Part shown: positions 6,878-25,706 of the stretch, in pieces
How positions within the stretch are numbered: position 1 is the stretch's first letter
Layout: each line of letters starts with the position of its first letter
Source of the DNA: Clostridia bacterium
GTDB lineage: Bacteria > Bacillota > Clostridia > Christensenellales > Aristaeellaceae
Length of the DNA stretch: 38,546 bases
Reading direction: 5' to 3'
Assembly (NCBI GenBank): GCA_017469025.1
Contig: JAFUHD010000247.1
Location: 1-38,546, forward strand
Made by a program: the position numbers and the translations under genes
Notes under the pieces: generated by a model
The model's input: the letters and a program-made list of their open reading frames with translations, nothing else
Told to the model about the DNA's origin: nothing
Database searches by the model: none

Positions 6878-6906
6878 TTCAAATAGAAATGCAATTGTGC
6901 TATAAT
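6878..6906 (+). promoter_or_regulatory. Promoter of the polysaccharide operon
   Basis: TTCAAA (6878-6883, four of six consensus bases) and a perfect TATAAT (6901-6906) with a 17-base spacer. Transcription would begin near 6913, about 130 bases before the first ATG. The rest of the 416-base gap between 6626 and 7041 holds only the terminator and the palindrome. Confidence 0.7.
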
Positions 6907-7041
6907 TACTCGGAAATTTGTGTATTAAACACACAACCGCATCCGTGGATAGCCTCGGTGCGGATCGTTTCCCGGCATCTTTGCTGTAGTAAGAAGAAAA
7001 CGGATACATCTGAGCCGGATCAGAAGTGGAGGAGTTAGAAT

Positions 7042-8715
7042 ATGGCAGGCAGTTTTGGAGAAAACCGGAAACAGTTTCGACTCCATTGGGGCAGATATTA
7101 CCGGAGCCGCGAGGTAGAGCCATATATTCGTTCCCTTGAAAACGAGATCCATGGCAGCTCGAGCAGAATTAACAATATGGAGGACGAAATGGCCGCCCTC
7201 CAGGAGACCATTGATGTTAAGAACCGGAAGATAGATGAGCTGCGCCAGCTGACGGATGATGCCGAAGAAAAGCTTCGTGAAAGCGGGAAAATGCGCGAGG
7301 AAGCTGTGGCACGTCTTGAGCAGATTGAAGAGGAAAGTCAGAAGCTCATGGCGCAGAAGGAAGAACTGCATAAGACCCGTCTTGAGACCAACAAGCGGCT
7401 CGCAGAAGCGGAACAGCGTACCAATCAGGCACGCCAGGAAGCGGAGACAGCTGTCAGTACACGCGCACAGTGCATGGATGCAGTGCGCGAACTTCAGGCA
7501 AAAAGCCAGGAAGCCCAGCAGGCAGCAGAAGCGGCTGAAGCAAGACGTAATGAAGCGGTATCCGAACGCGAAGCAGCTGAAAGCGCGCTGACAGAACTGA
7601 ATGAGACCATAGACAAGCTGAATGCCCAGAGCAAGCACATTTTGGATGATGCAAATGTGCAGGCTGAGGTGGCAATCGGCGAGGCGAAGGATAAAGCTGA
7701 GCGCATTCTTACAGATGCCCGTGCCCAGGCTGAACATCTGATGAACGAAGCAGCCGCGCAGGCAGCGAGCAATCAGGCTACGATTGCACCGTATCAGGCA
7801 CGGATTGATCAGCTGGAACAGGAGATCGGCCGCCTGCAGGGAATCATTGCCTCTGGCGGAAATACGGCGGATGCAGGAACACTGGCACAGTATCAGGGCA
7901 GGATTGCCCAGCTTGAGCAGGAACTTGTCAATGCCAGAAGTACATCCGGGACGGGAAATGGCGCCAGTGAGCAGGAACTGGCCGAGGCACGCAGCAGGAT
8001 TGCTGAGCTTGAACGGCAGGTTCAGTCAATGCAGGCACCTGACGGGGCGGCAGATGCTTCTGCAGCGGATGCGGGGATTCTGGGGGCATACCGTGAGCGG
8101 ATTGCCCAGCTTGAAAATGAGAACAGGTATCTGCAGAGTGCGGGCATGCAGCCGGATCCGGCAATCATTTCAGGGTACCAGAACCGAATTATGCTGCTCG
8201 AACAAGAGCTGCGTGACTTGCAGCAGTATGGTTTGAACCAGCAGATTGCCGGTCAGGATAATGCCATAGAAGCACTGCGCGCGAATCTTGATGAATCCCA
8301 GCGGGCCTATCAGGATATGGCTGATCAGAACCGTGAACTGCATATGCGCATAGAACAGCAGGCACGTGAAATCTCTGAACTTGAAAATGAGGTACAGGGC
8401 AGTTCGGTCAAGGATGCGAACCAGCGTGCGCGCCAGATTATTCAGGATGCGCTCGAGGAGAGCGGCAGGATACTGGATGAGGCAGAGATGGTCCGCTCAC
8501 GTGCGTTTGCTGCGACTAAAGCTGCCTATTTCAATGCGCTGATGTTCCGTCAGCGTCTGGCAGAACAGTTTACGGATATAGAGCAGAGTCTGGATGATTC
8601 CCTTGGTATTCTGAGATCGACTGATATGGTTGCCCTTTCGCCAAGAATGAACAGGGAATATCAGACAGACCCGAGATGGACAGCCTCCGGAGAGGGGAAG
8701 GAAGGAAACAAATGA
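7042..8715 (+). CDS. Cytoplasmic coiled-coil repeat protein
   Basis: 557 residues, Glu/Gln/Ala/Arg-rich, with no signal peptide or membrane segment. Heptad-type coiled coil fills most of residues 25-450. Four imperfect copies of a block of the form YQxRIxQLEQEL are visible near residues 251, 284, 350 and 379, separated by Gly/Ala/Ser-rich linkers. The last 100 residues (ARQIIQDALEESGRILDEAE onward) resemble the helical tail of DivIVA-type proteins, but I do not claim homology. GGAGGAG lies eight bases upstream of the ATG. The stop overlaps the next start (ATGA at 8712-8715). As first gene of the operon it may be a scaffold or positioning factor for the membrane synthase; this is inference. 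Confidence 0.85.
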   Translation: MAGSFGENRKQFRLHWGRYYRSREVEPYIRSLENEIHGSSSRINNMEDEMAALQETIDVKNRKIDELRQLTDDAEEKLRESGKMREEAVARLEQIEEESQKLMAQKEELHKTRLETNKRLAEAEQRTNQARQEAETAVSTRAQCMDAVRELQAKSQEAQQAAEAAEARRNEAVSEREAAESALTELNETIDKLNAQSKHILDDANVQAEVAIGEAKDKAERILTDARAQAEHLMNEAAAQAASNQATIAPYQARIDQLEQEIGRLQGIIASGGNTADAGTLAQYQGRIAQLEQELVNARSTSGTGNGASEQELAEARSRIAELERQVQSMQAPDGAADASAADAGILGAYRERIAQLENENRYLQSAGMQPDPAIISGYQNRIMLLEQELRDLQQYGLNQQIAGQDNAIEALRANLDESQRAYQDMADQNRELHMRIEQQAREISELENEVQGSSVKDANQRARQIIQDALEESGRILDEAEMVRSRAFAATKAAYFNALMFRQRLAEQFTDIEQSLDDSLGILRSTDMVALSPRMNREYQTDPRWTASGEGKEGNK

Positions 8716-10307
8716 AAACCGGACGAAAGTACGGGGTGTTCCTTCTGCTGATGCTTGCTCTGCTGTTTGTTCTGAGCGGATGTACCAACCGGCAGGGGCA
8801 GTTGGACGAAACACCGGAGCCCATCGTTTACATGACACCTACGCCGCAGCCGGTGCTTTCGGAAAATGCGGCCGGTGTTCTGACGGGCATTGAAACCAGT
8901 CAGCTCGTGGTATCCATCATTTTTGAAGGATATGCAGATGACGAGGTGCTTCAGGCTATCTGTGAGGTACTGGATACTTACGATCTGGACGGACTGTTTT
9001 TTGTAGACGGCAATACGGCTTATGAATATCCGAATATGGTCTCGTATCTGGTTCAAGAGGGATACGAGATCGGAAATTCGGGCATGCGCCACCATGCAGC
9101 AGCAGACCGGAGCTCTGTCAGTTCAAACGTACATCAGTTTGAAAGAACACAGCAGCTGATGTACAGCGCCTGCGGTGTGTATCCCAAGTATGCATGTTTC
9201 AATGCAAGCTCATACACGCAGGCAGTTCTCCAGGCAGTTACAGCCAGCGGACTGTCCGGTGTTGTTAAGCCGGATATTTTTCTGAACCATGATAGTTTCG
9301 TGGAAAAGGAAGAAGTCGATACCTTTGTTGAAAGCCTTGTACGGGGCAGTATTATCTCCATTCATCTGGGAAATGCGTCCGGTACATATGAAGAGGCCAA
9401 CTCGGATCTGGTTGGACGTGTTTCGTTGGATCCAACGCCCAGTATTCTCGACGGAGAGGAAAAAGTCAACACGGTGGATCTTCACATCAGTGAAATCCTG
9501 ACCTGGCTGATTGAGTCTCTGACGCTGAACCATTATACTATTGTAACGCCGACAGAGCTTCAGGATGCAAGAGTTAATCTGGTCGGTTCTGAGATCGCGC
9601 TTCCGACCAATTATTCTGAGCGTCTGAATCTCATCAATTATTCGCTTCCAAGGACGGATATACCCCTGGGCGTCACTGTAACGCGGACTGCCACAGCGGG
9701 GGATTTCTATGACACGGTCTTTGTCGGCGATTCGATCATGGCCAACCTGATGAGCTATGTCAACTGGCGGCGGGAGCGTGACCAGCTTTTCTGGGACGGT
9801 GCCCAGTTCCTGGTGTCTTCCAAGCTGACACTGGAAAAGGCTCTGATCTCGGACGAAGGTGCACCGGTACTGCCGATGGTTGAAGAGAGGCGTATTCACA
9901 TAGAGGATGCGCTTAAAATTCTTGGTGCAAGGCGTGTGTATATCTGTCTGAGACCGGAGAACATCAGGGCATACTCTGAGGAGCGGTATCTGACCAATCT
10001 CAAAGTGCTGATATATCTGATCCGGCAGAAGAATCCGAACATTGATGTTGTCATTCTGTCCATTCCGCCTGTTATTTCGGCACGGAATGCGACCCCATCT
10101 AACTGGCAGGTCTTCAATTACAATCTGATGGTTTGCCGGATGTGTGCATCACACGGTATTACGTTCCTTGACATTGCCTATCCGCTGCGCAATGAAAAGG
10201 GAGCACTCAGGGATGATTACTGCCTGGATCCGGACAGCTATGGTTCGCATCTGAACGATGCCGGCTGCGAAGCACTGCTCAATTACATTAACGCCAATAT
10301 TCCGTAA
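8712..10307 (+). CDS. Lipoprotein: degenerate NodB domain fused to SGNH domain
   Basis: 531 residues from the ATG at 8712, chosen over an upstream in-frame codon because it overlaps the preceding stop (ATGA) and follows GGAAGGAA. Residues 1-24 form a lipoprotein signal with lipobox LSGC (Cys24). Residues about 65-290 resemble a NodB polysaccharide deacetylase, but the TFDDG motif is IFEGY (70-74) and the metal-binding His motif is replaced by GNSGMRHHAA (121-130). Residues about 330-531 form an SGNH/GDSL-like hydrolase: FVGDSIM holds Ser341 and the C-terminal GSHLNDAG holds His513. The usual Asp three residues before that His is Tyr; Asp508 is nearby. The protein probably acts on the polymer outside the membrane as a binding protein and perhaps an esterase. 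The deacetylase half is likely inactive. Confidence 0.8.
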   Translation: MKTGRKYGVFLLLMLALLFVLSGCTNRQGQLDETPEPIVYMTPTPQPVLSENAAGVLTGIETSQLVVSIIFEGYADDEVLQAICEVLDTYDLDGLFFVDGNTAYEYPNMVSYLVQEGYEIGNSGMRHHAAADRSSVSSNVHQFERTQQLMYSACGVYPKYACFNASSYTQAVLQAVTASGLSGVVKPDIFLNHDSFVEKEEVDTFVESLVRGSIISIHLGNASGTYEEANSDLVGRVSLDPTPSILDGEEKVNTVDLHISEILTWLIESLTLNHYTIVTPTELQDARVNLVGSEIALPTNYSERLNLINYSLPRTDIPLGVTVTRTATAGDFYDTVFVGDSIMANLMSYVNWRRERDQLFWDGAQFLVSSKLTLEKALISDEGAPVLPMVEERRIHIEDALKILGARRVYICLRPENIRAYSEERYLTNLKVLIYLIRQKNPNIDVVILSIPPVISARNATPSNWQVFNYNLMVCRMCASHGITFLDIAYPLRNEKGALRDDYCLDPDSYGSHLNDAGCEALLNYINANIP

Positions 10308-10355
10308 GAAACGGTTTTATCATGAATCACGAATCAGTGGAAAGGAGGGAAAGAA

Positions 10356-12275
10356 ATGCAGACAGACAATGGGACACAGAGCGAGGAGCGCAGAAAACTG
10401 AAAATCGGCTTTGAGCTTGCTGCACTGACTGTGGTTCTTTTCTTCCATATCTCATTCTTCGGACAGACGCTGAACGAAGAGAAAATCGTGGTAGATACAT
10501 TCCCATACAAGTATGTGGATGCATACGGCGATCATCTGCTGCATGCACCGGATGCCCAGGGATACCTTGAAACTCAGTACGGGCAGCAGCATTTTGCTGC
10601 CATAGCGTATCCGTCTATTGTGGCCAATCCCACCGGGGACCAGGTGAGTATTACGACCTTCAGGGTACAGATGGAGGCGCTGAGGCGTTCAGGCTACACT
10701 TCCATCATGCCGATTGATGCCGAAACATTTTATGAACTTGAAACGGGTCTGCCGGAAAAGGCGGTCATGATTCTTCTGCTGGATGTCCGTGATGAGAGCA
10801 TAGAGCAGGTAGAGGACATCCTGAACGAGGTCGGTTTTTCTGCTGTCGTCTGCAACTATGCAGATGAAATTGGTCCCGAGGGAATTATTTCCTCGGAGAC
10901 AGTTAAACGGCTGTCGGAAACTGGAAGAATCAGGATTGGCACGCGGGGGTACAGCAGGAGATACATCAATGTATTTGACCGCTACGGCAACTATCTTGGC
11001 AGTCTTGATGCGAATGAGTTTGATGAACTTGAGCAGTTCCTGGATGACGACTATGAATTTGCCGAGACAGACTATATCCGGGATTCAGACCGCATTCCGA
11101 CGGAGACTGAATCAGCCATGCGTCTGCGTATTTCAAACACCTACCAGAAAATCCGGGATGTGTATCAGGGTGTCCTGGGGGCACTGCCGCAGATGTTTGT
11201 ATTTACAGCGCCAAATACAGGTTCCTTTGGATATGTAGAACTTGCATCACGGATCAATGGAAACAATATCCGCCAGGACTATCCGATTAACTTTAACCGT
11301 CAGGGCACGGCACTTAACACGATTAACAGTTCGGCGTACGATCTGAGCTATATCTATGTATCAGGCAACCAATCGGTGAACCACCTTCTGATGAGGCTCT
11401 GGGATGATACGAGTGATGAGCTGAGTTTTGCCATTGGAAATGAATCTGAGGCCAACAAGTGGATGCTGGTTGATGGTGTGGCAGAATTCGGCAACACCAA
11501 CATCATTATGACAACAGAGCCTGACGGCAAGGCGACCATAGCCCTGCGCGGTCTGATGATAGATGACTGTGACCTGTCGGTACGAATGCTGGGCAGTGCG
11601 GCTGGCCGTCAGAGTGTTTACCTCAGAACCGACCGCAATACGAAGGCAGGTATTGAGATTTCAATTGAGGACGGTTCAATCTATATCCGGGAAGCTGGCC
11701 AGACACTGGAAACGTGGTTCCAGAGTGAACTGCCGTTCATGCAGTCAACCATATCCATAGAGGAAGAGGAACTGGCCAGCCGGATTGCATATACACAGGC
11801 TGTTCTGGCCAATGAATCCGATCCTGTCTTGCGCAACCAGGCTCAGGAAACGCTGAATCAGTTGAAGCGCATAAAGGTGCAGGGCATTTCTGACGGTGCG
11901 GAATCTGCTGCTGTACATTATTCATCTGCAACGAGAACGAACATCAATCTGCGGGTCAGACTGATCGGTAATTCACTGACGGTGTGGATCAATAACCGCC
12001 TGATCGTAAGTGAGCTTGAAGTTCGTTCAAGCGGCCGCGGCGTCGTGGCGCTTGGTGCGGGTGTTACAGACGGATCTTACAAGGCAACAGATCCTGTAGA
12101 TGTTACAGACGGTATTTTTGAGGGACTCGAGATTACACCGGTTAATTCTGACAGCTCGGTCTACTATACATATACCACGCGTATTGCCACGACAAGCAAG
12201 TCGCTGGCTGACAGGATTTCCGCTGGAGCATCTGCCCTGATTGACAAACTTCGGGTCAGACTGACATTCAAGTAA
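10356..12275 (+). CDS. Membrane-anchored NodB-like protein with lectin-like C-terminus
   Basis: 639 residues. One hydrophobic segment near residues 17-36 anchors the protein with the rest outside. Residues about 95-310 resemble the PgaB-type polysaccharide deacetylase layout (FRVQMEALRRSGYTSIMP, then LPEKAVMILLLD), but VMILLLDVRDE replaces the catalytic TFDDG stretch, so deacetylase activity is unlikely. Residues about 370-610 are beta-rich with paired blocks such as NLRVRLIGNSLTVWINN, like a concanavalin/LamG-type domain that would bind glycan. The ATG follows GGAGGG. The gene is 48 bases after its upstream neighbour in the same operon. The lectin-like call is from pattern, not from a recognised signature. 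Confidence 0.75.
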   Translation: MQTDNGTQSEERRKLKIGFELAALTVVLFFHISFFGQTLNEEKIVVDTFPYKYVDAYGDHLLHAPDAQGYLETQYGQQHFAAIAYPSIVANPTGDQVSITTFRVQMEALRRSGYTSIMPIDAETFYELETGLPEKAVMILLLDVRDESIEQVEDILNEVGFSAVVCNYADEIGPEGIISSETVKRLSETGRIRIGTRGYSRRYINVFDRYGNYLGSLDANEFDELEQFLDDDYEFAETDYIRDSDRIPTETESAMRLRISNTYQKIRDVYQGVLGALPQMFVFTAPNTGSFGYVELASRINGNNIRQDYPINFNRQGTALNTINSSAYDLSYIYVSGNQSVNHLLMRLWDDTSDELSFAIGNESEANKWMLVDGVAEFGNTNIIMTTEPDGKATIALRGLMIDDCDLSVRMLGSAAGRQSVYLRTDRNTKAGIEISIEDGSIYIREAGQTLETWFQSELPFMQSTISIEEEELASRIAYTQAVLANESDPVLRNQAQETLNQLKRIKVQGISDGAESAAVHYSSATRTNINLRVRLIGNSLTVWINNRLIVSELEVRSSGRGVVALGAGVTDGSYKATDPVDVTDGIFEGLEITPVNSDSSVYYTYTTRIATTSKSLADRISAGASALIDKLRVRLTFK

Positions 12276-12318
12276 CAGCACTGCTGTTTTTGTCGGAGAG
12301 AAGAAAGGAGGCAGGGAG

Positions 12319-14667
12319 TTGAGCAAAAAGAAGGCGTTGACACTTGCACTGCTGGTGTCGTTCTTCGTGTGCGCAATAGTCGCATTCATGATGCTCCGCT
12401 CCCGGCCGGCCAGCAGACAGGCCGGCACGGAGGCCAATACACGCGCACTTGTTTCGGTCGTGGACAACATGACAGCAGATGATCTGAATGATGCTCTTGC
12501 CCGTTTTCGTCTGGTGACTGAAGAAGATATCATCGGTATTTCGGAAACCATGCCGCGTTTTACCGGTGAACGTGTAAAGCTGGTCTTTACCGGAACCGGT
12601 TCTGCAGAGATGATGCAGGCGCTTGCAAATGTACTTGAAGAAAGGGAACTGTCCAGTTCATTCTTCTTTACTGAGAGCGAACTGAGAGGCAGCCAGAGAG
12701 CAATTGAGACGCTTCTCGGTCATGGAATTGAAATTGGTCTGCTCTATGACAATCAGGGCGGCAGTATGGCCGGGTCCAGCGGAGAAGAGCTGGTATCCAG
12801 TCTGTGTTCCCTGTCATTCTTGCTCAGAGCAGGTTATAACCTGATCCGCGTTCCCGTAATGAGCCGTGAAACACCCAGTGTAACGGCATTGCGTGCCGCG
12901 ACGGCCTGTGGTTTTTCAGAGGTTGTCGTAACACATTCGGAGATCAGCCTGGATGACTGTACGAGTGCAGATATTTCCCTGCGCCTTCTGCTTGGAGTTG
13001 ACCGCGGTGATATTGTCCGTGTTCATCTGGACGGCGGCAATCCTGAAAAGGTTGTAACGAATCTTACGGCACTTCTTGATGCACTTGCTTCGACCAATTC
13101 ACGTGTAAGAGCCCAGCAGCGTCTGGCCATCTGGACAACAGATTGGGGTCTTGCTTATCCGATCCGCCGTATTGATACGACAGAAGAAGGCGCAATTTTC
13201 TCGTTTGCAGGACTCGGCAATCGTGCTGAGCTTGACGATGTGTTAAAGACCCTTAAATCACTGAACGGAAAAGGTCTGTTCTATGTTACGCTGGACGAGG
13301 CCGTTCATAAAAAGGAGACGGTACGCGAGGTTCTGGCTGACGGACATGATCTGGGTATTTACGTTCCGGATATCGATTCACCGACTGCAGAAGAATATCT
13401 GACGGAAATGATCTCCTGTGATGATGAAATCCGGTTGCAATTCGGTTATAATAATGAATTGCCCGTATATGTACCATACGATCAGGAGTTCAACCTTCTG
13501 AAGGCTGCCTCAGCCGGCGGATTTTCACTGGCGACTGCGTATCTTTTCCCGGTTCGTCCCCAGGATACGCGGAAGGTGGATGATGAAGAGGAGATCATGA
13601 TGGACATCCTGTCCCGGTTTGACCGTACGGTTAACCGTGGTGAACTTGTTCATTTTGACCTCAACCAGTTTATTTACAGCAATGAAATGAGCGGAAAGCT
13701 GATTGAATGCTTTGCTCAGCAGCGCTGTGTGTATCCGCTGCATGGCTATCATGCCATGATCAATAACACGCCGAAACTCTGGCGTTATCCGCTGGATGAC
13801 AGTCTTGTTATTTCGAGTATCCGGAACAAGATCCGCCGCGGTCAGATGCGGACATCACTGATGGATGAGATGATTTCACATTACATCGGTTCACCGTGGC
13901 TCGCAAAAGAAGATACCATGATCGATTTTACAGATCAGGAGCTTCGTTCGATAGACAAGACCGGTATCATCAGGAACAATAATTCAGAAGTTTATCTGAC
14001 ATTTAATGATGCAGATATGGATGCCTTTATAACGCCACTGCTTCATGTACTCAAGAAGCACAATGCGAAGGCGACGTTCTTCGTCCGGACGGAAACCGCA
14101 GACTGGAACCCGAATCTGATGCGTGCAATTGCAGAGGAAGGACATGCTCTGGCTATACGTGCAGACGATACGTTTACCACGGTTTATACGATGGGCGCAC
14201 TGACAAGCAATGCGACAGATGATGTTATGCGCAACCGGGAAGTTGCTGTCCGTGCACTTCAGAATGAATTCAAGACAGCCTATGATACGCTTGTTAAAAT
14301 TGCAGGCGACATCAAATTGAGAGACGGTACGCCGGCTGTCACGACTTTCTTCCGTCCACCATATGATGAGATCAATCCGGTTGGCATGAATGCTGTATTT
14401 GACAGCGGATTTTCATGGTCTGTCGGCGGTGCATATCTCAATATTGAACCGGTAGAGCCGGATCCGCTGGATGAGGATGCGGAAAAATACTGGATATACA
14501 AGGAAAATCAGTTGTCTGAGATGATCGCGGCAACAAAGAGCGGTGCAATTCTGTCTATATCCTATATCATAGATGAAGATGTAGATCTGCCTGATCTCAT
14601 TGACCAGTATCTGAGCAGCATTGGCGGCGCACGTTTTGTACCGCTGACCAATGTTCTGGGACAATAA
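12319..14667 (+). CDS. Membrane-anchored protein with three degenerate NodB domains
   Basis: 782 residues. The start is TTG at 12319, with AAAGGAGG seven bases upstream; no ATG fits the position. A hydrophobic anchor spans residues 6-26. Three NodB-like units follow, each beginning with the strand that should carry TFDDG: KLVFTGTG (87-94), AIFSFAGLG (292-300) and VYLTFNDAD (558-566). Each continues with the usual helix and the FF(V/Y) strand (SSSFFFTES, GKGLFYVTL, KATFFVRTE). The third keeps FFRPPY (677-682), the arginine motif of the family, but lacks the HxxxH metal ligands. The C-terminal unit is clearly paralogous to that of the next gene. Probable role: extracellular glycan binding without hydrolysis. 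Confidence 0.82.
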   Translation: MSKKKALTLALLVSFFVCAIVAFMMLRSRPASRQAGTEANTRALVSVVDNMTADDLNDALARFRLVTEEDIIGISETMPRFTGERVKLVFTGTGSAEMMQALANVLEERELSSSFFFTESELRGSQRAIETLLGHGIEIGLLYDNQGGSMAGSSGEELVSSLCSLSFLLRAGYNLIRVPVMSRETPSVTALRAATACGFSEVVVTHSEISLDDCTSADISLRLLLGVDRGDIVRVHLDGGNPEKVVTNLTALLDALASTNSRVRAQQRLAIWTTDWGLAYPIRRIDTTEEGAIFSFAGLGNRAELDDVLKTLKSLNGKGLFYVTLDEAVHKKETVREVLADGHDLGIYVPDIDSPTAEEYLTEMISCDDEIRLQFGYNNELPVYVPYDQEFNLLKAASAGGFSLATAYLFPVRPQDTRKVDDEEEIMMDILSRFDRTVNRGELVHFDLNQFIYSNEMSGKLIECFAQQRCVYPLHGYHAMINNTPKLWRYPLDDSLVISSIRNKIRRGQMRTSLMDEMISHYIGSPWLAKEDTMIDFTDQELRSIDKTGIIRNNNSEVYLTFNDADMDAFITPLLHVLKKHNAKATFFVRTETADWNPNLMRAIAEEGHALAIRADDTFTTVYTMGALTSNATDDVMRNREVAVRALQNEFKTAYDTLVKIAGDIKLRDGTPAVTTFFRPPYDEINPVGMNAVFDSGFSWSVGGAYLNIEPVEPDPLDEDAEKYWIYKENQLSEMIAATKSGAILSISYIIDEDVDLPDLIDQYLSSIGGARFVPLTNVLGQ

Positions 14668-14670
14668 CTG

Positions 14671-14686: not shown

Positions 14687-14704
14687 AGAAAGGGGATAAA
14701 AGTT

Positions 14705-16682: not shown

Positions 16683-17375
16683 ATGGAGAAATTTCTGGCA
16701 TCGCTGCATATTACGATGCCTTCGGGGTTTACTCTTGTCCCTTCATTGCCGCATATATTTCTGATTTTTACGTTTATATTATGCAGTGTTATGATCATAT
16801 TCCTGGGCGTTCTTCTGAAGCGGGCAATTCCCTGTATTTATTTCGGTCTGTTCTGCGCATTCCTGTCCATGCAGAACGTTCTTCCGATTTTTGCCGGTGA
16901 AGCAATGTGGATTCCGGTTCTTATGATTCCAGGATGTATCAGTGGAATGCTGCTGTATGCGCTCATGTCATTTGTTCTGTGGCTGATTGATGTGGAAACG
17001 GGTGAAATGACGGATGGTGGCAAAAGGATTCTTGCCGGGCTGAGTGTCGGAACTGGTTCCATTCTTCTGGCCATGTTTTTGTATGTGATCTTTACGCATA
17101 ACTTCTTTATCATTTTTCTGATTTGTGCTACACTGGCAGTTCTCGGCTTTTTGAACCAGAATAAAATTATTGCCAATGGACACCGTTTTAAGGCTTATCC
17201 GGAACTGTATGATCTTAAGATAGATGAGTATGCCATGAAGACACAGAATGACTTTGACCAGATTCTGAGGAGTGGCAGCGGTGTTGCCGGAGAGGTACAG
17301 CGGACATCCAGGGATGACAAGCAGGCAGAAGAGGGCAAACGCAGACGTCTGTTCTCTCTGCCCTGGAAGCGTTAA
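16683..17375 (+). CDS. Multi-pass membrane protein of unknown function
   Basis: 230 residues from the ATG at 16683, which follows AAGGAGGAG by five bases; an earlier in-frame codon lacks such a site. About five hydrophobic segments are visible, near residues 24-44, 46-66, 76-100, 118-138 and 138-156. A soluble, charged C-terminal tail of about 70 residues ends in RRRLFSLPWKR and should be cytoplasmic. I do not recognise a family. Its position just ahead of the VTC and DUF4956 genes, with the stop two bases ahead of a possible VTC start, suggests that it belongs to that module. Confidence 0.8.
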   Translation: MEKFLASLHITMPSGFTLVPSLPHIFLIFTFILCSVMIIFLGVLLKRAIPCIYFGLFCAFLSMQNVLPIFAGEAMWIPVLMIPGCISGMLLYALMSFVLWLIDVETGEMTDGGKRILAGLSVGTGSILLAMFLYVIFTHNFFIIFLICATLAVLGFLNQNKIIANGHRFKAYPELYDLKIDEYAMKTQNDFDQILRSGSGVAGEVQRTSRDDKQAEEGKRRRLFSLPWKR

Positions 17376-17386
17376 TGGAGGCGGGC

Positions 17387-18088
17387 ATGGTTGATATTGA
17401 GCGATATGAATCAAAGTATCAGCTGAACCACGTAGATGCACTGCAGATCCAGGGCAGGCTCAAACGATATATTCAGCCGGATGTTTATTCCGGACCAAAC
17501 GGATATGTGGTAAGGAGCGTATATTTTGATACGCTGTTCAACAAGGACTTTTACGACCGGGTGCAGAGCCTTACAAATCGCAGCCATATAAGGCTTCGCA
17601 CATATCCGCAGAAACCGGATACGATTTCCCTCGAATACAAGGAAAAGAACGGAATTACCGTTCGCAAGCGGATTTTGCCGGTGACACACCAGCAGGCTTT
17701 GCTTCTGCTGCAGTCAGACTATTCACCGCTTAGCAATCACAGGGACCCATTCGCCAGAATGCTGTACCGGAAGATGACCCTGGAGACGTACAGACCGTGC
17801 GTTCTGATTGAATACCAGCGCAGGGCGTATGTGCGGAAGGAGAACAGTATCCGGATTACTTTTGATTCCAACATTCGGGTGAGTGAAGCGAATCTGGATC
17901 TGTTTGATCCGAATATCCCCATGGCACCGGTTGGCATGCAGGGACAGGTGATTATGGAAATCAAATATCAGGACTTCTTCATGAGTGATTTAAAGGCCGC
18001 TATCGGACCGCATCCACTGCGGTCGGAGGCTGCCGGAAAATACCAAAGGGCCAGAATGATATACATGTCAGGGAGGAACTACCTATGA
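17387..18088 (+). CDS. VTC-domain protein (polyphosphate polymerase-like)
   Basis: 233 residues from the ATG at 17387, preceded by GGAGG at a five-base distance; an ATG at 17375 overlapping the previous stop is possible but has a weak site. The VTC fold (triphosphate tunnel superfamily) is shown by RYESKY (6-11), YVVRSVYFDT, RLRTY (69-73), SLEYKEK (81-87), RKR (93-95), IEYQRRAY and EIKY (191-194). These provide the charged residues that line the active-site tunnel. In yeast Vtc4 this domain makes polyphosphate from ATP at the membrane. Bacterial homologues often sit beside DUF4956 and CotH genes, as here, with undefined roles. Its stop overlaps the next start by four bases (ATGA at 18085-18088). 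Confidence 0.9.
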   Translation: MVDIERYESKYQLNHVDALQIQGRLKRYIQPDVYSGPNGYVVRSVYFDTLFNKDFYDRVQSLTNRSHIRLRTYPQKPDTISLEYKEKNGITVRKRILPVTHQQALLLLQSDYSPLSNHRDPFARMLYRKMTLETYRPCVLIEYQRRAYVRKENSIRITFDSNIRVSEANLDLFDPNIPMAPVGMQGQVIMEIKYQDFFMSDLKAAIGPHPLRSEAAGKYQRARMIYMSGRNYL

Positions 18089-18795
18089 ACGCGACGACGA
18101 ATATTCGTGATATTCTGAATGACTTCTTTTTGAGCAATATCAGCGGCGATACGCTGACGGTTACCGAAATACTGCTCAATATGAGTGCTGCCCTGCTGAT
18201 CGGTCTTTTGATCTTTGTGGTATACCGGGTTACGCACACGGGTGAAGTTTACAGCGCCCGATTTAATGTGTCCCTGGTTATGCTTGTGCTTGTTACGACC
18301 ATTGTCATGACGGCGATTGGCAGCAACGTGGCGTTGTCGCTGGGCCTTGTAGGCGCACTTTCCATTGTACGTTTCAGAACTGTTATCAGGGATACACGCG
18401 ATACGATGTTCATTTTCTGGTGCGTGGCTGTCGGCGTGTGCTGCGGCGTTGCCGCTTATGTGCTGGCACTGATCGGTTCAATGTTCATCTTCCTATATCT
18501 GATGGTCTGTGGTATGATTCGTGAAAATGAGCGCTGTCTCATTATTATCCGCGGAACCCCCGCCGCTCTCAGTGATGCCGAAAAGGTGGTTGGCCAGCAT
18601 TATGCACAGAAGGCCGTCCTTCGTGTTTCGAATATCAATGCGGAAGATGGTACCGGCGAATCCATTTATGAAATTGCGTCCAACCTGCGTGAAAAATATG
18701 ACCGGCAGGCCGGTACTGTTGAGAGTCTTCTGTATGGTTCCCGCGGTATCACGTCTATCAGTATCGTTCGTCAGGAGGATGAGGTTTCTGGCTGA
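18085..18795 (+). CDS. DUF4956 family membrane protein
   Basis: 236 residues. The block SLGLVGALSIVRFRTVIRDTRDT (about 85-107) is the hallmark of DUF4956. Hydrophobic segments lie near residues 26-47, 62-80 and 109-142, and a cytoplasmic domain of about 90 residues follows (residues 146-236, ferredoxin-like in pattern). The biochemical role is unknown. The family habitually neighbours VTC-domain genes and may form the membrane partner of the VTC protein. Start and upstream stop overlap (ATGA). Confidence 0.9.
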   Translation: MNATTNIRDILNDFFLSNISGDTLTVTEILLNMSAALLIGLLIFVVYRVTHTGEVYSARFNVSLVMLVLVTTIVMTAIGSNVALSLGLVGALSIVRFRTVIRDTRDTMFIFWCVAVGVCCGVAAYVLALIGSMFIFLYLMVCGMIRENERCLIIIRGTPAALSDAEKVVGQHYAQKAVLRVSNINAEDGTGESIYEIASNLREKYDRQAGTVESLLYGSRGITSISIVRQEDEVSG

Positions 18796-18805
18796 TGAAT
18801 CTGTT

Positions 18806-18822: not shown

Positions 18823-18880
18823 TGCCAGGTAGCCAAATATCGCGCCCTTTGTGGTGCGCTTGAAACAATCGGAGTTTAGC

Positions 18881-20395
18881 ATGGTACGATCAAAACGACT
18901 TCTTTTGCCAGTTGCGATTGTGTGCATTGTAGGAGTCTTCCTGATCGCCCTTCTCTATTTTGCACTGCACAGGACAGAAGAAGGGAGATCAGACCCCTTC
19001 ATCTATTATGATGAGAGCCTGCCTGCTGCAGAGGTTTCGCTGGATCCGTTTGCAGCAATGGACGATGACTTCAAGGTAACACAGGAGTTCTCATCCAATC
19101 TTCCGATTTTTGTGTTTACACTTGCGGGGGAGAAGGATAACGGATGGGAAAACGGTATGCTTTCCATCTACAGCTGGAAAAATGAGATGAACAATCTGTA
19201 TGTGTCACCGACACAGTCACTTTCCATACGGCTGCATACGGAGTCTACAGCTGATGGCGTGAAACCGGATTTTGACATGATGACGCTTGATGCAGACGGG
19301 GAAATCAAGGATACAGAAATCCTCGGTATGCCTGCAGATGAGACATGGCATTTGAACAGCTTGCGGAATGATCTCAGCATGCTGAGATCTTATACAGCGT
19401 ACAGGACGGCATCCCAGTTTTTGAATTTTGTTCCGCATGTAGCCTATTGCGAAATCCTGATAGAACGGGAAGGCAATCTTGTTTATCAGGGAATATATGA
19501 AATCTGTGAAACGATAGATGTCAGTCCGACCAAAGTTAACATTGATGCGCCGGAAGGGGATAAGACGCGGGTAGATTACTTTATCGTGAGTGATACAATG
19601 CGTCAGGGACGACTGCTAAGCACAAGGCAGATTGATGGAAAGTATGTGAGAGGATATACTTCTCTGCTGTATCCGGACGAAGCAGATCTGACCCGTGAAC
19701 AGATGGCGTATATCGAGACGGATTACAACACGATTACCGAACGTGTCAGTGCGCTTGATGATTACGGCATTCTGATTGATGTTGACAGCCTTCTGGATTA
19801 CTACATTCTGAATATGTATTTCGGAAAAACAGATGCCGGCAAATCCATGACGTATATGTACAATACGGTGAACGGGAAACTGTCATTCGGACCGGTATAT
19901 GATTTCGATCTTTCCATGGGAAACCTGAATGGAGAGTCAACGGATCCGGATGAAGTCGTCTATGATCAGCAGATATTCCTGAGTGATCTCATACGTGATA
20001 ATGGTTTTGTGACCAAGCTGCTGAGAAGATATGTTGAGCTCAGGCGTACCTATCTGAAGGAAGATACGGTCTATACAATCTTGGATGAAGCGCGGGATTA
20101 CCTCAGAATTGCAAAACAGCGTGATGATGCCCGCTGGCGTCCCAAAGCTCAGGAAGAGGAAGGCGTTAAGGCAATTTACAGAACCGGTACAATTGAGAGT
20201 ACTGAATATGAACGTGACGTCTACCGGATCAAGGCCTATCTGACAGAGCATGCCTCTGCAGTCCGCAATACATTTGCGACGATTGAAGAGGAACAGCGTA
20301 TCGCACTCAGGTTTACCGGTGGAAATACGCTGCTGCTGTTTGTTTCGCTTGTACTGTTTTTCATTCCGTCCATTCTGATTAACCGGAAAGGTTGA
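18881..20395 (+). CDS. CotH-kinase-like protein, membrane-anchored
   Basis: 504 residues from the ATG at 18881 (GGAG six bases upstream); an in-frame GTG at 18851 has no such site. A hydrophobic segment at residues 7-28 and a second at about 480-500 enclose a large external domain. CotH motifs are present: VYQGIYEICETID (201-213) matches the YxGxYxxxE strand-helix, and GPVYDFDLSMGN (337-348) matches the PxDFDxxxG metal-binding motif with Asp341 and Asp343. Spore-coat CotH is an atypical kinase that phosphorylates proteins; other CotH-like proteins accompany exopolysaccharide and VTC/DUF4956 genes. Here it would modify a surface protein or glycan, which is inference. Confidence 0.85.
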   Translation: MVRSKRLLLPVAIVCIVGVFLIALLYFALHRTEEGRSDPFIYYDESLPAAEVSLDPFAAMDDDFKVTQEFSSNLPIFVFTLAGEKDNGWENGMLSIYSWKNEMNNLYVSPTQSLSIRLHTESTADGVKPDFDMMTLDADGEIKDTEILGMPADETWHLNSLRNDLSMLRSYTAYRTASQFLNFVPHVAYCEILIEREGNLVYQGIYEICETIDVSPTKVNIDAPEGDKTRVDYFIVSDTMRQGRLLSTRQIDGKYVRGYTSLLYPDEADLTREQMAYIETDYNTITERVSALDDYGILIDVDSLLDYYILNMYFGKTDAGKSMTYMYNTVNGKLSFGPVYDFDLSMGNLNGESTDPDEVVYDQQIFLSDLIRDNGFVTKLLRRYVELRRTYLKEDTVYTILDEARDYLRIAKQRDDARWRPKAQEEEGVKAIYRTGTIESTEYERDVYRIKAYLTEHASAVRNTFATIEEEQRIALRFTGGNTLLLFVSLVLFFIPSILINRKG

Positions 20396-20526
20396 TCCAG
20401 TTGGGAAATGACTGGAAGAGAAAAATATAAGTTTTGCTGTAGTATTCATCTGACTCAAATGATCCGGTGCTTTGCCGGACAAAGAATAATTATGGAAAGG
20501 AGGAGGCGGAAATACCGCCAGAGAAT

Positions 20527-21936
20527 ATGGATTTAACCAGTATTCCATTTTTAATCTACTTTCTGCCGATCCTCCTGATTCTCTATTATGCAGCTTCTTT
20601 CTCTGCACAGGTTCAGAATGGTGTTCTGTTTGTTGCCTGCATTCTGTTTTATGCATGGGGTGATCCTCAGAGCATCATGCTCCTCATTGCCTGTATCCTG
20701 CTCAGCTCGGTGGCATCGTATCTGATTGTCCGAATGGACGGGTCGATGAAGAAGCTGATGCTCTATGTCGGTGTCGGCGTCAACTTGTTCCTGCTGTTTG
20801 CGACACGGTATATGAGTGACTTCCTGGAACTGCTTGGACCATCCATCGGCGTCGAACTGCATTATTCGGTTCATGAACCGCTTGGAATGCTTGTTTTCAT
20901 TCTGCATGCAGTTTCTTACCTTGTCGATGTCTATCGCGGAAAGGCGGATACAGAGAGTCCGTTTAATGTAGGTATCTACATTGCTTTCTTCCCGTTTCTG
21001 AGGAATGGTCCTCTGCTTTGTTACCGTGAAATTCAGCCGCAGCTGAAGAAAAGGAAAATAGATTACCGTCTTTTGGCATTGGGTGCCTGCCGCCTGATCG
21101 TTGGTCTGGCCAAGCTTGTGATCCTGACAGACCGGTTCCGTGGAATTGCAGACAATGTATTCAGTCTTGCACAGATCGATGCCGGTGAATACAGTGTGCC
21201 GATTCTGCTTTCCTGGCTGGGTATTGGGACATTTACCCTTCAGATCTATTTTGAGTTTTCCGGTTATGCTGATATGGGCATAGGACTCGCGATGCTGCTT
21301 GGCTATCGTGTGGAGGAAAATTTCAACGCACCTTATTCAGCGCAGTCCCTGAAGGATTTCTGGAAACGGTGGGAGGTAGGACTTTCCCAGTGGATGTCCA
21401 GATACCTGAGCAGTCTGTTCAGTGAGACACACTCGGAAAATGATGACATGAGCGTGTTTCAGATATTTACCTTTGCAATTATCGGTCTGTGGCATGGTAC
21501 AAAGTATACCTTTGTCATATGGGGCGTAATCAACGGTATTGTCGTACTGGCAGAGAGCATTATCGACTATCCTTCGCAGATACCGTTCAAAGCGTTGCGC
21601 CGTATGTATACCATGCTGGTAGTTATGATCGGTTTCGTCATGTTCCGTGCGGAGGACATTTATCAGGCCAGCCGTTACTATCTGGATATGTTCGGACTGA
21701 ACAACAACGGATTTTTCAGTGATATCGCACTGCGGCTTATCCGCGAGAACTGGATTTACTATATTGCCGGCATTCTGTTCTGTTTCCCGATTGCCCGAAA
21801 CATGAATGAGCGGATGTTCAAGGATCCCAGCGGTACGCTGAATCAGGTCATGACGCTGGTGTATCCGCTGGCAATGCTGCTGCTGTTTGCAATCTGTCTT
21901 ACCTTTATCGTAGTCGGGGCGTATTTCCCGGCGTAG
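20527..21936 (+). CDS. MBOAT O-acyltransferase (AlgI/DltB-like)
   Basis: 469 residues from the ATG at 20527, with about eleven membrane segments. MBOAT features: YFEFSGYADMGIGLAMLLGY (241-260), FNAPYSAQSLKDFWKRW (266-282) and IGLWHGTKYTFVIWG (319-333), which includes the catalytic-type His323. AlgI-type proteins pass acyl groups across the membrane for O-acetylation of exported polysaccharides. An oddity is WKRWE where the family normally has RRWH: the conserved His is Glu283. The start is uncertain, since the strong AAGGAGGAGG ends 20 bases before this ATG and is optimally placed for an ATA codon at 20512 in the same frame. The gene pairs with the AlgJ/AlgX-like gene downstream. Confidence 0.88.
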   Translation: MDLTSIPFLIYFLPILLILYYAASFSAQVQNGVLFVACILFYAWGDPQSIMLLIACILLSSVASYLIVRMDGSMKKLMLYVGVGVNLFLLFATRYMSDFLELLGPSIGVELHYSVHEPLGMLVFILHAVSYLVDVYRGKADTESPFNVGIYIAFFPFLRNGPLLCYREIQPQLKKRKIDYRLLALGACRLIVGLAKLVILTDRFRGIADNVFSLAQIDAGEYSVPILLSWLGIGTFTLQIYFEFSGYADMGIGLAMLLGYRVEENFNAPYSAQSLKDFWKRWEVGLSQWMSRYLSSLFSETHSENDDMSVFQIFTFAIIGLWHGTKYTFVIWGVINGIVVLAESIIDYPSQIPFKALRRMYTMLVVMIGFVMFRAEDIYQASRYYLDMFGLNNNGFFSDIALRLIRENWIYYIAGILFCFPIARNMNERMFKDPSGTLNQVMTLVYPLAMLLLFAICLTFIVVGAYFPA

Positions 21937-21992
21937 GAATATCAATAAATCATTGATTCTCTGTAGGCGGGAATCAGGAAAGGAGGAACGAA

Positions 21993-23273
21993 GTGAAGTA
22001 TATACTGCGGAAAGTTGTCTTTGGAATTCTGCTGCTTTCGATCCTCCTGATTCTTCTGGCATCCAATATTGGTGTAAACGGTTCCAAGATTATACAGAAT
22101 GTCCGTGGAACCCGGATTTCTTCCGTAGATGATGTAAAAACCATCATTTCAGCAGTGGAGAATACCATGAACGAGGGTTTCATTGGCCGGATGGGTTTTG
22201 TGGAGGCTTATTCACAGGTAGTGAAGCTCCTGGGAAAGAAAGAGTTTTCAGACTTCCTCTATGTTAAGGATGAGGACAATTATCTGCATACGACTGCTTT
22301 TTATTCCGGTTTCGATCCTGAGATGCTGACATATGCCATACGGGTGAAAATTCTGCAGGAAACGGTTGAGGCAAAAGGCGGGAAGCTGCTTTTTGTGATT
22401 CCGCCGATCAAATACCGGACTGGAAATACGGTACTGGATTATGGACTTCCTGCTGCAAATCCGGAAAACAAAATCAGTGAGCTGATGAATGTGCTGACTG
22501 AATATGATATTGATGTCATCGATTTTAATCAGTATTTTCCAAACCAGAGCCTGCCGTATCAGCAGTCCTTCTATCGGACAGAGCGTTACTGGACAATTCC
22601 GGCTGCCTGGATGGCCGCACGCGAAATCGCACACTGGATGGAGGTCACCAAAGGTGTGCAGCTGGATCCGGATGGCAGTCTGATTGGGCCGTCAGCATTT
22701 GACTGGGTAACCTATCCCAATAAAATGCTTGGGACGATGGGACTCAAAACCGGGAAAAACTATATCGGCCTTGAAGATTTTACAGCATTGTGGCCAAAGG
22801 ATCCGGGACTGTATGAATATCTCTGTTACCTGGAGAATGGTGAACGGAATATCATTCGAGGAGACGTGTATGATACGCTGATCAGCAGGAGTACAGTGGA
22901 AGACATGCCTGATTCGCCGGATAAATCAGCATATACTGCATATCTGCCTGGTATTTACCTCCACAACATTATAACCAACAGGAACAATTTTGAAGGTCTC
23001 CGTGTGTTCATGATCCGCGACAGCTATTTTTCACCGGTAACCGTGTTCCTGTCTCCGCTTTGCGGCATTATAGACTCCATCTGGTCAGATCTGGAGGAAA
23101 CGATTTACCAGATGGAAAACTACGTGGAGAATCAGGAGTTTGACTTTGTGATCATGCAGATTGATCCGTACAACATCAATGCAGACACCTTTGATTTTTA
23201 TAAGGAGGAAGCGGAAATCCGGATGGATCTGCTGGGACTTACAAGAACACCTGATGAAAGTACAGGAAACTAA
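21993..23273 (+). CDS. AlgJ/AlgX (DHHW)-like SGNH protein, catalytic dyad altered
   Basis: 426 residues. GTG start at 21993 with AAAGGAGG seven bases upstream. An N-terminal hydrophobic segment (7-24) anchors an external domain laid out like AlgJ/AlgX: a FIGRMGFVEAYS-type N-terminal region, the strand KLLFVIPP (131-138), FYRTERYW (193-200) and VFMIRDSYFSP (338-348). The expected TDxHW motif, which gives the catalytic Asp and His, is TERYW here (Glu197, Tyr199), whereas the Ser of the DS(F/Y) motif is retained (Ser344). In alginate-type systems such proteins accept acyl groups from the MBOAT partner and transfer them to the polymer. This protein may act by a changed mechanism or only bind glycan. 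It is immediately downstream of the MBOAT gene. Confidence 0.8.
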   Translation: MKYILRKVVFGILLLSILLILLASNIGVNGSKIIQNVRGTRISSVDDVKTIISAVENTMNEGFIGRMGFVEAYSQVVKLLGKKEFSDFLYVKDEDNYLHTTAFYSGFDPEMLTYAIRVKILQETVEAKGGKLLFVIPPIKYRTGNTVLDYGLPAANPENKISELMNVLTEYDIDVIDFNQYFPNQSLPYQQSFYRTERYWTIPAAWMAAREIAHWMEVTKGVQLDPDGSLIGPSAFDWVTYPNKMLGTMGLKTGKNYIGLEDFTALWPKDPGLYEYLCYLENGERNIIRGDVYDTLISRSTVEDMPDSPDKSAYTAYLPGIYLHNIITNRNNFEGLRVFMIRDSYFSPVTVFLSPLCGIIDSIWSDLEETIYQMENYVENQEFDFVIMQIDPYNINADTFDFYKEEAEIRMDLLGLTRTPDESTGN

Positions 23274-23342
23274 TCCGTTTTTATTACTCCGGGCAGCTTC
23301 TTACCTGCAGCTGCCGTGGATGAAGGAAAGGAGGACGATTGC

Positions 23343-25664
23343 ATGAATTGGTCGCAGACCAGGAAAAAGGTCTGGTTCGGACTGAACATTATCTTCACGG
23401 CCAATTATCTGATCTGGCGAATTTTCTATACATTTCCGATTCCAGGGCATCCGATTTCCATCTTAGTCTGTGCAGCGCTTCTGTTCTTCGAAGTTCTGGG
23501 TCTTCTGGAGCAGTACATCCATTTCAAGAGCATGTCTGAAATGCGGGAGTATCCGAAGCCGGATGTACCTTATGAACTGTATCCGGATATCGATTTCTTC
23601 ATTTCCACATACAATGAGGATGAGGAACTCCTGACCAAGACGATCAACGGATGTCTGAACGTGGAATATCCGGATCTGGAGAAGGTACATATTTATATCT
23701 GTGATGACGGCAACCGCCCTGCAATCAAGGAATTTGCGAAGAAATTCGGTCCCCGCATTCACTATCTGCATCGTGGCAATCATGACGGTAAAAAGGCAGG
23801 AAACATCAATCACTGCACCCGTCATACAACGTCTCCGTATATTGTTACACTGGATGCAGACATGATCGTGCAAAGCCGTTTCCTGATGGAAATTGTGCCG
23901 TATGTGGTGGATGCGGAGATCAAGAATGCCAACCTGCCCAAGGACAAGCGTATGCCGCTGGGATTCATTCAGACCCCGCAGGCGTTCTACGACCTGGATC
24001 TTTTCCAGTATAACCTCTATCTGGAAAATGATATTCCGAATGAACAGGACTTCTTCCATCGTGGTATTCAGGCTGCCAAGACGAGTACCAATACGGTTAT
24101 TTACGCAGGCAGCAATACCCTGATCTCAAGACGTGCCATGGCAGCTATTGGCGGATTCTATACCGAATCCATTACGGAGGACTTTGCAACTGGATGTCTG
24201 ATGCAGCAGCATGGATTTGTCTGCATGGGTACCGGTGATCCTCTGGCTTCGGGCCTGTCACCGAATACGCTCCACTCGTTGATCCGCCAGCGTGTACGGT
24301 GGGGACGCGGCGTTATTGACACTGCAAAGAAGCAGCATATTTTCTCAGTTCCAGATCTGTCGTTTATTCAGAAACTGATGTACTGGGAATCCATGTTCTA
24401 CTGGTACGCACCGGTTAAGCGTCTTGTATACATTTTCTCGCCGATGCTGTATGCAACATTCGGATTTGAGGTTATGCGATGTTCGCTTCCTCAGGTTCTT
24501 ATGTTCTGGTTGCCGATGTATCTGGTCAGTGCAATCTCCCTGAAATCCATTTCAGCCAATGTTCGGTCGAACAAGTGGACGGCTATCTATGAGACAGCCA
24601 TGTTCCCGTTCATGCTGATCCCGATAATGCTTGAAACCTTTGGTTTCTCGCTTTCTGAATTTAAAGTTACGGTCAAGAGCCGTGTAAAGAACAAGCAGGG
24701 AGACAATCTGGTATATATGATGCCGATGATCATCCTGCTGACGCTCTCGGCTATCGGCATCTGCCGCTCCGTGTGGATCATCCTTTCGACAAACTCCATT
24801 GGTCTTGCGGTTATCGTTTTCTGGATGATTTACAATATGTATGTTATGCTGATGAGTCTGTTCTTCGTTGCCGGACGTGGTATCTACAGAAGCGCTGAAC
24901 GTGTTACGGTTACGATGCCGGCCAAGCTGGTTGTCCGTGGTAAAACATACGACTGTACAACGGTTAACCTTTCAGAAAATGGTGCTGCCATTCAGATGGA
25001 TGATCCTCATCTGGTGAACACGGAGGATGCATATCTGATTCTGGATGACCGGAAATATCACTGCCGGGTGAAAGTGCATCCAATACGTGTCTCGCCCCGC
25101 CGTGCAATGAGAAACGGGAAGGTAACAACGCGCTGGGAATATGCGTTCTCCTTTACGGAAATTCCTGAGGAACGCGGCTATGAGAATCTTTGCGGCATTC
25201 TTTATGACCGGGTTCCGACGCATGCTGAGACCATCAAGAGCAACAACCTGTATAAAGAGCTTAACCGGAACTTTATACAGCGCCAGGATGCCTCTGCGTT
25301 CATGGCCCGTTCCCTGCCGCGTATTATCATGAATACGGAAGTACGGACTGAGGAAATCCGTGAGCCGCTGATCATGCGCGACTTCAACTATCAGTATATG
25401 GCATTTACGACGAAGGGTGTTATGCCCAGACATATGACGATAGATCTTGATGGATTTGCGATTCAGTGTGTCCGGGATAAGACACTTGCGTACGCTACAC
25501 TTTACCGGATTGAGGATATGGATCATCTCTATACCTCTCAGGAAGTGGCGGATTCCATTATGAACTGGATGCTGACACACTCCAAAGGCGAGACGCGCCG
25601 GCAGTCCATGGACCGTGTTTTTGGCCGGGAATTCAACGAAACCGCTGCTGTTCTGTCTTATTAA
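23343..25664 (+). CDS. BcsA-like processive GT2 glycosyltransferase with PilZ domain
   Basis: 773 residues from the ATG at 23343, which follows GGAGG by eight bases; an earlier in-frame ATG lacks this. Membrane segments lie near 12-30 and 36-56. The GT2 domain carries the processive set: STYNED (88-93), DDG (121-123), DAD (171-173), TED (278-280) and QRVRW (316-320). More membrane segments run from about 340 to 510. A PilZ domain follows with RSAER (516-520) and NLSENG (542-547), fitting RxxxR and (D/N)xSxxG, so c-di-GMP activation is likely. The gating-type motif FFCGS of cellulose synthases is VIYAGS (252-257). About 140 further residues (630-773) match nothing I know. It should polymerise a beta-linked glycan and export it; whether glucose is the unit is open. 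Last gene of the operon. Confidence 0.92.
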   Translation: MNWSQTRKKVWFGLNIIFTANYLIWRIFYTFPIPGHPISILVCAALLFFEVLGLLEQYIHFKSMSEMREYPKPDVPYELYPDIDFFISTYNEDEELLTKTINGCLNVEYPDLEKVHIYICDDGNRPAIKEFAKKFGPRIHYLHRGNHDGKKAGNINHCTRHTTSPYIVTLDADMIVQSRFLMEIVPYVVDAEIKNANLPKDKRMPLGFIQTPQAFYDLDLFQYNLYLENDIPNEQDFFHRGIQAAKTSTNTVIYAGSNTLISRRAMAAIGGFYTESITEDFATGCLMQQHGFVCMGTGDPLASGLSPNTLHSLIRQRVRWGRGVIDTAKKQHIFSVPDLSFIQKLMYWESMFYWYAPVKRLVYIFSPMLYATFGFEVMRCSLPQVLMFWLPMYLVSAISLKSISANVRSNKWTAIYETAMFPFMLIPIMLETFGFSLSEFKVTVKSRVKNKQGDNLVYMMPMIILLTLSAIGICRSVWIILSTNSIGLAVIVFWMIYNMYVMLMSLFFVAGRGIYRSAERVTVTMPAKLVVRGKTYDCTTVNLSENGAAIQMDDPHLVNTEDAYLILDDRKYHCRVKVHPIRVSPRRAMRNGKVTTRWEYAFSFTEIPEERGYENLCGILYDRVPTHAETIKSNNLYKELNRNFIQRQDASAFMARSLPRIIMNTEVRTEEIREPLIMRDFNYQYMAFTTKGVMPRHMTIDLDGFAIQCVRDKTLAYATLYRIEDMDHLYTSQEVADSIMNWMLTHSKGETRRQSMDRVFGREFNETAAVLSY

Positions 25665-25669
25665 CAAGT

Positions 25670-25706
25670 AAAAGGGATGCTGTAAATTTTACAGCATCCC
25701 TTTTTT
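25670..25706 (+). terminator. Strong terminator of the polysaccharide operon
   Basis: A stem of about 15 bp (AAAAGGGATGCTGTA pairing with TACAGCATCCCTTTT) with a short loop and a run of six T, starting six bases after the synthase stop codon. Confidence 0.95.

Follow-up and report, generated by a model that had tools for sequence, protein, structure and literature searches.

A 12-gene locus of uncultured Christensenellales in which NodB proteins with lost metal sites stand beside a BcsA-like synthase

Known exopolysaccharide systems and the gene content of the locus

The Ccs cellulose locus ccsZABHI, as described in PMC7710045, encodes a BcsA-like PilZ synthase and an MBOAT plus DHHW pair and has no BcsB homolog, and according to the same source clostridial cellulose loci are normally without BcsB. 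Gram-positive Pel loci carry an accessory set of CotH, PPP and DUF4956 genes (PMC7112168, PMC12345266); S. intermedius aggregated less when either the CotH gene or SIR_1592, an MgtC-like four-TM gene, was mutated, and the authors report that CotH/PPP/DUF4956 synteny was not found outside Pel (PMC12345266). The PNAG loci pga/ica (PMC7112194) encode PgaB/IcaB-like and NodB proteins, and NodB activity is reported to need an Asp pair in MT1 and a His pair in MT2 (PMC10967932). In C. perfringens, the chromosomal locus NELoc-2 (PMC2879425) has VTC, CotH and a GT2 gene; the genes beside VTC annotated there as 'tubulin/FtsZ GTPase' may be DUF4956 genes.

The window, a stretch of 38,546 nucleotides from a MAG of an uncultured gut Clostridia bacterium (contig JAFUHD010000247.1), contains 12 ORFs (genes A to L) between 7042 and 25664, all on the + strand and with small gaps or overlaps between neighbours. 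The operon is a variant among synthase-dependent exopolysaccharide loci. It has in common with Ccs the BcsA-like PilZ synthase, the acyltransferase pair and the lack of a BcsB homolog, but differs from the locus described in PMC7710045 in having no GH5 CcsZ and no evident CcsB, and in adding VTC/DUF4956/CotH and genes A to E. The absence of BcsB was rejected as an unusual feature, since it is normal for Ccs in that description. All three families of the Pel accessory set are present, but they lie beside a BcsA-like synthase, and a PelG search of the window genome (MAG, 93.7% complete) gave no match. The PgaB/IcaB-like protein C (by profile) and the NodB proteins are shared with the PNAG loci of PMC7112194, whereas the synthase is not PgaC-type and the catalytic motif of C and the NodB metal sites are lost. 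VTC, CotH and a GT2 gene are shared with NELoc-2, in whose gene table neither a deacetylase gene nor a BcsA-like PilZ synthase appears. Every module is related to something known (Ccs, the Pel accessory set or PNAG proteins), and the combination is new in the literature searched: open-licence PMC yielded no paper on the 12-gene combination, in keeping with the preliminary description of this stretch, which had called the gene set unusual, and none on a VTC/DUF4956/CotH/MBOAT/DHHW/BcsA-like locus. The coordinates, strand and gene types given in that description were borne out by ORF and Pfam/profile analysis, whereas its eleven genes are 12, the number to which its own gene list also sums.

Gene A (7042-8715) encodes a 557 aa coiled-coil protein without a TM-like segment, for which all matches were of coiled-coil type. 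By Pfam, gene B (8712-10307; ORF as listed from 8676) combines a degenerate NodB domain with a GDSL/SGNH domain, and it carries GDS and GSHLND motifs, which we take to be SGNH-type. The 639 aa product of gene C (10356-12275) is membrane-anchored and PgaB/IcaB-like with its catalytic motif lost; the family profile matches PgaB N-deacetylases (1.3e-13), and the C-terminal part is weakly like 3keto-disac_hyd. C has a single N-terminal TM-like segment, CcsB being a two-TM, CBM-like extracellular protein (compared by architecture), and C is a candidate synthase partner. Genes D (12319-14667), a multi-NodB protein, and E (14705-16483), a NodB-repeat protein, have lost the metal site, as read from Pfam and alignment. 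Of four NodB-repeat proteins originally proposed, B, D and E pass the NodB Pfam cut-off, whereas the single sequence of C has no NodB match and its family profile is PgaB-like.

Gene F (16683-17375) encodes a small membrane protein; its ORF as listed begins at 16629, and a AAAGGAGGAG site suits the start at 16683. In the gap between E and F (16484-16682), TTGCGTCATAAAAGGAG is found as a direct repeat, the second copy being, by eye, the likely ribosome-binding site of F. There follow gene G (17375-18088), a VTC (polyphosphate polymerase-like) protein (PF09359, 120 bits, cut-off 23), gene H (18085-18795), a DUF4956 membrane protein (PF16316, 50.6 bits, cut-off 30.6), and gene I (18851-20395), a CotH kinase-family protein with TM-like segments at its N- and C-termini (PF08757, 125 bits); phmmer searches of PDB with the VTC and CotH proteins gave no matches. 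The acyltransferase pair consists of gene J (20467-21936), an AlgI/DltB-like MBOAT acyltransferase by Pfam with a WHG motif, and gene K (21993-23273), which is AlgX-type SGNH acetyltransferase-like (PF16822, 40 bits, with one further weak line). K of the window matches ALGX only, and its orthologs in the two genomes of other families described below match DHHW. A Pfam scan of the 12 operon proteins gave no match to the Gram-negative Bcs markers BcsB and BcsZ (GH8), to GH5 or to any other endoglucanase, as the preliminary description had stated for BcsB-like and endoglucanase genes.

Gene L (23316-25664) encodes a BcsA-like GT2 synthase with the catalytic motifs D,D / TED / QxxRW (here QRVRW). 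All six of its PDB matches are cellulose synthases (best 222 bits). Its score against the CelA equivalog is 330 bits, under the cut-off of 699, which counts against the cellulose-type reading set out below; against the PgaC/IcaA-type TIGR03937 it scores 68 bits, below the cut-off of 422. The C-terminal PilZ domain (PF07238, 31.9 bits; RSAER..NLSENG) has the complete RxxxR / NxSxxG motif in all four window-type genomes where the synthase was found, and L is predicted to be c-di-GMP-responsive. Among the relatives of L, of which the best-scoring ones were considered, one (G079, 42%) is about 1070 aa and has a fused GH5 cellulase, and another (G266) is also about 1070 aa. In a class-wide search of 391 genomes, three besides the window's pass E 1e-170, and among plasmids the synthase matched 516 records, each at <60% identity.

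Occurrence of the two halves in other genomes

Both halves of the locus have homologs elsewhere. In a genome of another family (G873), an F' membrane protein is followed by VTC, DUF4956, CotH, MBOAT, DHHW and L, in the order of F to L; in a genome of a second other family (G823), the order is VTC, DUF4956, F' small membrane protein, DUF4956, CotH, MBOAT, DHHW, L and GH5. From VTC through L, identity to the window proteins is 29-46%. A third genome (G828) has an L relative (40%), a 357 aa protein whose two ends look hydrophobic, MBOAT and DHHW, and the 20 kb stretches of all three gave no matches to A-E, to GH18 or to X, the synthase introduced below. Across 12 loci of non-window-type L relatives (these three and nine from family and order searches), VTC, DUF4956, CotH and MBOAT stand together beside L only in G873 and G823, which counts against the cellulose-type reading; of the nine, one (G023) has CotH and MBOAT beside the L relative, and the remaining eight have none of the set with these HMMs. 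The F-L set is conserved, yet only a minority of this synthase family has it as a partner. F had been described as an orphan membrane protein, a label that we dropped because F matches the small membrane protein of G873 weakly (E 0.001) and sits at the same position there. The counterpart in G823 gave no match; all three share a C-terminal F..Y..[LI] motif, by eye, and a neighbourhood, and F is probably not an orphan.

The three accessory families are also common in the window's own family. DUF4956 was present in 117 of 120 family genomes, and VTC adjoins DUF4956 in all 20 loci picked from the family list (L173-L192). CotH, for which the model is narrow, lies beside the pair in five of the 20; in one locus (L178) a CotH match is about 4 kb from it. 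This family-wide occurrence led us to reject the idea that VTC/DUF4956/CotH is specific to the operon. PelG was found in one of 14 genomes (the window's and 13 of the 19 source genomes), on another contig than the DUF4956 loci; since 12 of the 13 source genomes tested are without PelG, the set lives outside Pel loci.

Homologs of A-E were collected in an alignment-based scan with C, from which the best 80 of 103 relatives were kept, three of window type and 77 at canonical loci (L055-L131). The neighbourhoods were read with HMMs that were built on the same loci, with window proteins, one X and one GH18 as seeds. A PilZ-GT2 synthase, X, lies directly before C in 76 of the 77, the exception beginning at a contig end, and a GH18-like gene lies directly after C in 71; of the six without it, two end there (L064, L121) and four have room yet no match (L072, L098, L099, L114). 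D/E-type NodB proteins were found in 64 of the 77 loci, with none within reach in the other 13, B-type proteins in 34, and A-type proteins and MBOAT in eight each. VTC/DUF4956/CotH was found in none, a count that may be too low given flanks of at most 10 kb and many contig ends. The hosts, mainly Bacillota, include Selenomonas, Butyrivibrio, Anaerocolumna, Lacrimispora, Tissierella, Acetobacterium, Thermotalea, Megasphaera and Pectinatus, together with two MAGs labelled Chloroflexi; no paper on this X-C-GH18 locus was found in open-licence PMC. X has QQ[MI]RW and GDDR in all 73 proteins scored, and the best matches of the one X searched (from L037) are hyaluronan synthases; because X is hyaluronan-synthase-like and the C profile matches PgaB, the canonical locus looks PNAG-like, the polymer class being putative. 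By pattern, the c-di-GMP motif was matched in 2 of 73 canonical X proteins, and most of ten inspected rows are without the first Arg; no c-di-GMP response is claimed for these loci, since the motif is mostly absent. The GH18 pattern DxxDxDxE was matched in one of 69 canonical GH18-like proteins, and GDS is present in 14 of 19 long canonical B proteins.

From these comparisons, A-E look derived from the widespread canonical locus, with its X synthase and GH18 gene gone. In a tree of C (L121 excluded as too short), the window-type rows make up a single clade, which is placed with 15 rows of the lineage and apart from 61 others (99 SH-aLRT); however, its branch is very long (2.29), and for branches of this kind the tree tool cautions that the grouping may be spurious. 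Canonical C is also present in all three sister genomes tested, in one (G514) as a 63% fragment, whereas no canonical X was found in the window's own assembly (MAG, 93.7% complete), which counts against the cellulose-type reading set out below. The preliminary description had taken all modules for a single system. A neighbourhood search does not bear this out and gives the outcome which that description had itself named as refuting, C and NodB proteins standing with another synthase and GH18 in most of the 77 loci, and VTC/DUF4956/CotH/MBOAT/DHHW/synthase occurring without NodB genes in G873 and G823. Of the further proposal of a new c-di-GMP-controlled system, the c-di-GMP part agrees with the PilZ motif in four of four genomes and with 48 GGDEF matches in the 4.25 Mb MAG of the window genome, whereas the modules as one system type find no support.

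Within the genus, window-type D was found in 6 of 29 genomes, all MAGs: the window's, Christensenella sp. UBA4263 (L052), goat rumen RGIG3625 (L053), RUG11251 (L054), G524 and apparently RGIG4336 (L066). The complete A-L order is present in two, the window and UBA4263, and most other copies end at contig ends: RGIG3625 and G524 run from A to CotH and RUG11251 from A to F before the contig stops, with L on another contig in RGIG3625 (87%) and RUG11251 (82%). The gene order is the same in several genomes up to contig limits. The RGIG4336 genome (apparently G517/G523 as one; 75% complete) has pieces of D and E and no L match, which counts against the cellulose-type reading.

NodB metal sites

A complete DD/HxxxH metal site is missing from every NodB domain of the window. 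The D-D-H-H site is present in 64 of 65 C-terminal domains of canonical D/E-type proteins (n = 67, two of which are without the needed columns), compared to none of eight aligned window-type D/E proteins from four genomes; four more were read by motif. At the D,D,H,H positions, D has N,D,R,T and E has D,G,N,G in all four genomes, and both MT2 histidines are missing from every window-type D and E examined. Such changes were also found in G524 and G523, whereas canonical-type proteins of G518 and G519 keep HxxxH. In canonical loci, too, B (by pattern) and C (on seven sequences) are without a full site. E retains the MT5 His and, of the MT1 pair, the first Asp, and may therefore have another activity. 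A catalytically active NodB array was rejected because the metal sites of the window domains are lost, and the array probably has no deacetylase activity.

In a tree of D/E proteins, E belongs to a 15-row clade (support 97), and as the 11 canonical members of that clade all keep the metal site, its loss in E is derived in the window-type group. D falls in a lineage clade of 23 (100), in which all 15 canonical rows have the metal site except the D protein of L067 (D,G,L,R), the sole canonical exception among the 65. This protein is next to D (92), itself degenerate and long-branched, and stands beside an intact E, a combination that is possibly an intermediate state. The loss in D arose within the lineage and may be shared with L067 or reflect a long-branch effect, and since the nearest row to D is itself degenerate, the loss may predate the change of synthase or be unrelated to it. 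Elsewhere in the window genome (contig C61, L040), a lone E-like NodB protein without a metal site (TFEG / RTHTD) is encoded a few kb downstream of an EAL-domain gene.

A cellulose-type reading of the locus and its rivals

We consider it moderately probable that two loci were joined in one lineage of uncultured Christensenellales to give a system for an O-acylated, cellulose-like polymer, responsive to c-di-GMP, in which dead deacetylases serve to handle the glycan without catalysis. F-L would have been a ready-made cellulose-type locus, with its synthase, O-acylation pair and VTC/DUF4956/CotH/membrane-protein set, and A-E a duplicated, fast-evolved copy of the PNAG-like locus from which the original synthase and GH18 were lost. 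Without N-acetyl sugars as substrate, D and E would have lost their metal sites and stayed as extracellular glycan-handling proteins; this order of events, like the polymer identity and the roles that follow, we infer from sequence. On binding of c-di-GMP to its PilZ domain, L would extrude a beta-glucan, most likely O-acylated cellulose, to which J and K would add acyl groups outside the cell. The anchored, PgaB-like C would assist L, D and E would bind or guide the glucan chain, and B, in which the SGNH motifs are present, may use that site to edit acyl groups. C and B would probably replace CcsB and CcsZ as synthase partner and editing protein. A may serve as a cytosolic scaffold. For VTC/DUF4956/CotH, phosphate-linked regulation or surface phosphorylation is proposed, based on the role in Pel-dependent aggregation reported for S. 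intermedius (PMC12345266). That the whole PNAG-type module for secretion and modification has lost catalysis and turned into a non-enzymatic assembly apparatus outside the cell for a phosphorylated, O-acylated cellulose-like polymer, with VTC/DUF4956/CotH as a polyphosphate-linked surface phosphorylation machine, seems very unlikely.

Unlikely, too, is the reading that A-E and F-L are promoter-sharing neighbours in separate pathways, A-E being a decaying duplicate. Each half is found apart elsewhere, the metal sites are lost and the largest intergenic gap of the operon lies between E and F, all of which would fit. However, a conserved promoter and terminator enclose both halves. An extended -10 promoter, TTCAAA-N17-TGnTATAAT (TTCAAA-17-TGCTATAAT), lies at 6878-6906 on the + strand, and TTYAAA and TGnTATAAT are found upstream of gene A in four of four aligned loci (the window and three relatives), the remaining leader sequence not being conserved; an Rfam scan of the leader gave no c-di-GMP riboswitch and no family at gathering scores. 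The intrinsic terminator hairpin at 25670-25704 (+ strand; folding z -7.1 against shuffles) is found 3' of L in the same number of aligned loci, as read by eye. Directly after it, at 25814-27409, lies an AAA-ATPase_like plus PDDEXK_9 gene. Internal promoters were looked for, and promoter-like sites in the region are at about chance level (30 found, 27.8 expected). Terminator-like sites are above chance (26 found, 16.5 expected, sd 4.5), some of them internal and on the + strand, so internal transcript ends may occur and would fit separate pathways. One full-length transcript is likely, and the promoter-to-terminator unit of the preliminary description stands as to its two ends, with the internal terminator-like sites as a qualification. 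The GC of the two halves (0.504 and 0.472) shows no clear separation, which counts against the cellulose-type reading. Decay of A-E is opposed, together with the gene order kept in several genomes up to contig limits, by dN/dS ratios of 0.09-0.11 for D and E against the window and 0.06 between two sisters. Where computable, dN/dS between the window and its sisters is 0.05-0.19; these ratios are rough, dS being near saturation in many pairs. D and E are kept under purifying selection despite their lost metal sites.

An amino-sugar polymer, PNAG- or chitosan-like, made by a synthase of changed donor specificity and processed by atypically active NodB proteins, would account for the resemblance of A-E to the PNAG-like locus, for the SGNH motifs kept by B and for the first Asp and MT5 His kept by E. 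We think this quite unlikely, since the synthase is BcsA-like (TED, QRVRW) with GH5-linked relatives and the MT2 histidines are missing throughout the window-type D and E proteins examined. The single novel c-di-GMP-controlled system with active deacetylation and O-acylation of the preliminary description agrees with the gene content and the PilZ motif, but is hardly credible given the lost metal sites and the independence of the modules elsewhere.

On the cellulose-type reading, an exopolysaccharide locus has seemingly swapped its class of synthase and kept its helper genes, the trace of this being the metal sites lost in two paralogs. The comparison has brought to light a widespread PNAG-like locus and places VTC/DUF4956/CotH in a cellulose-type locus, compared to the report in PMC12345266 of none outside Pel. 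A genome that has paralogous loci, one with metal sites and one without, offers a natural comparison for non-deacetylase roles of the NodB fold, and the locus suggests that enzymes have been given a structural or guiding role for a surface glycan.
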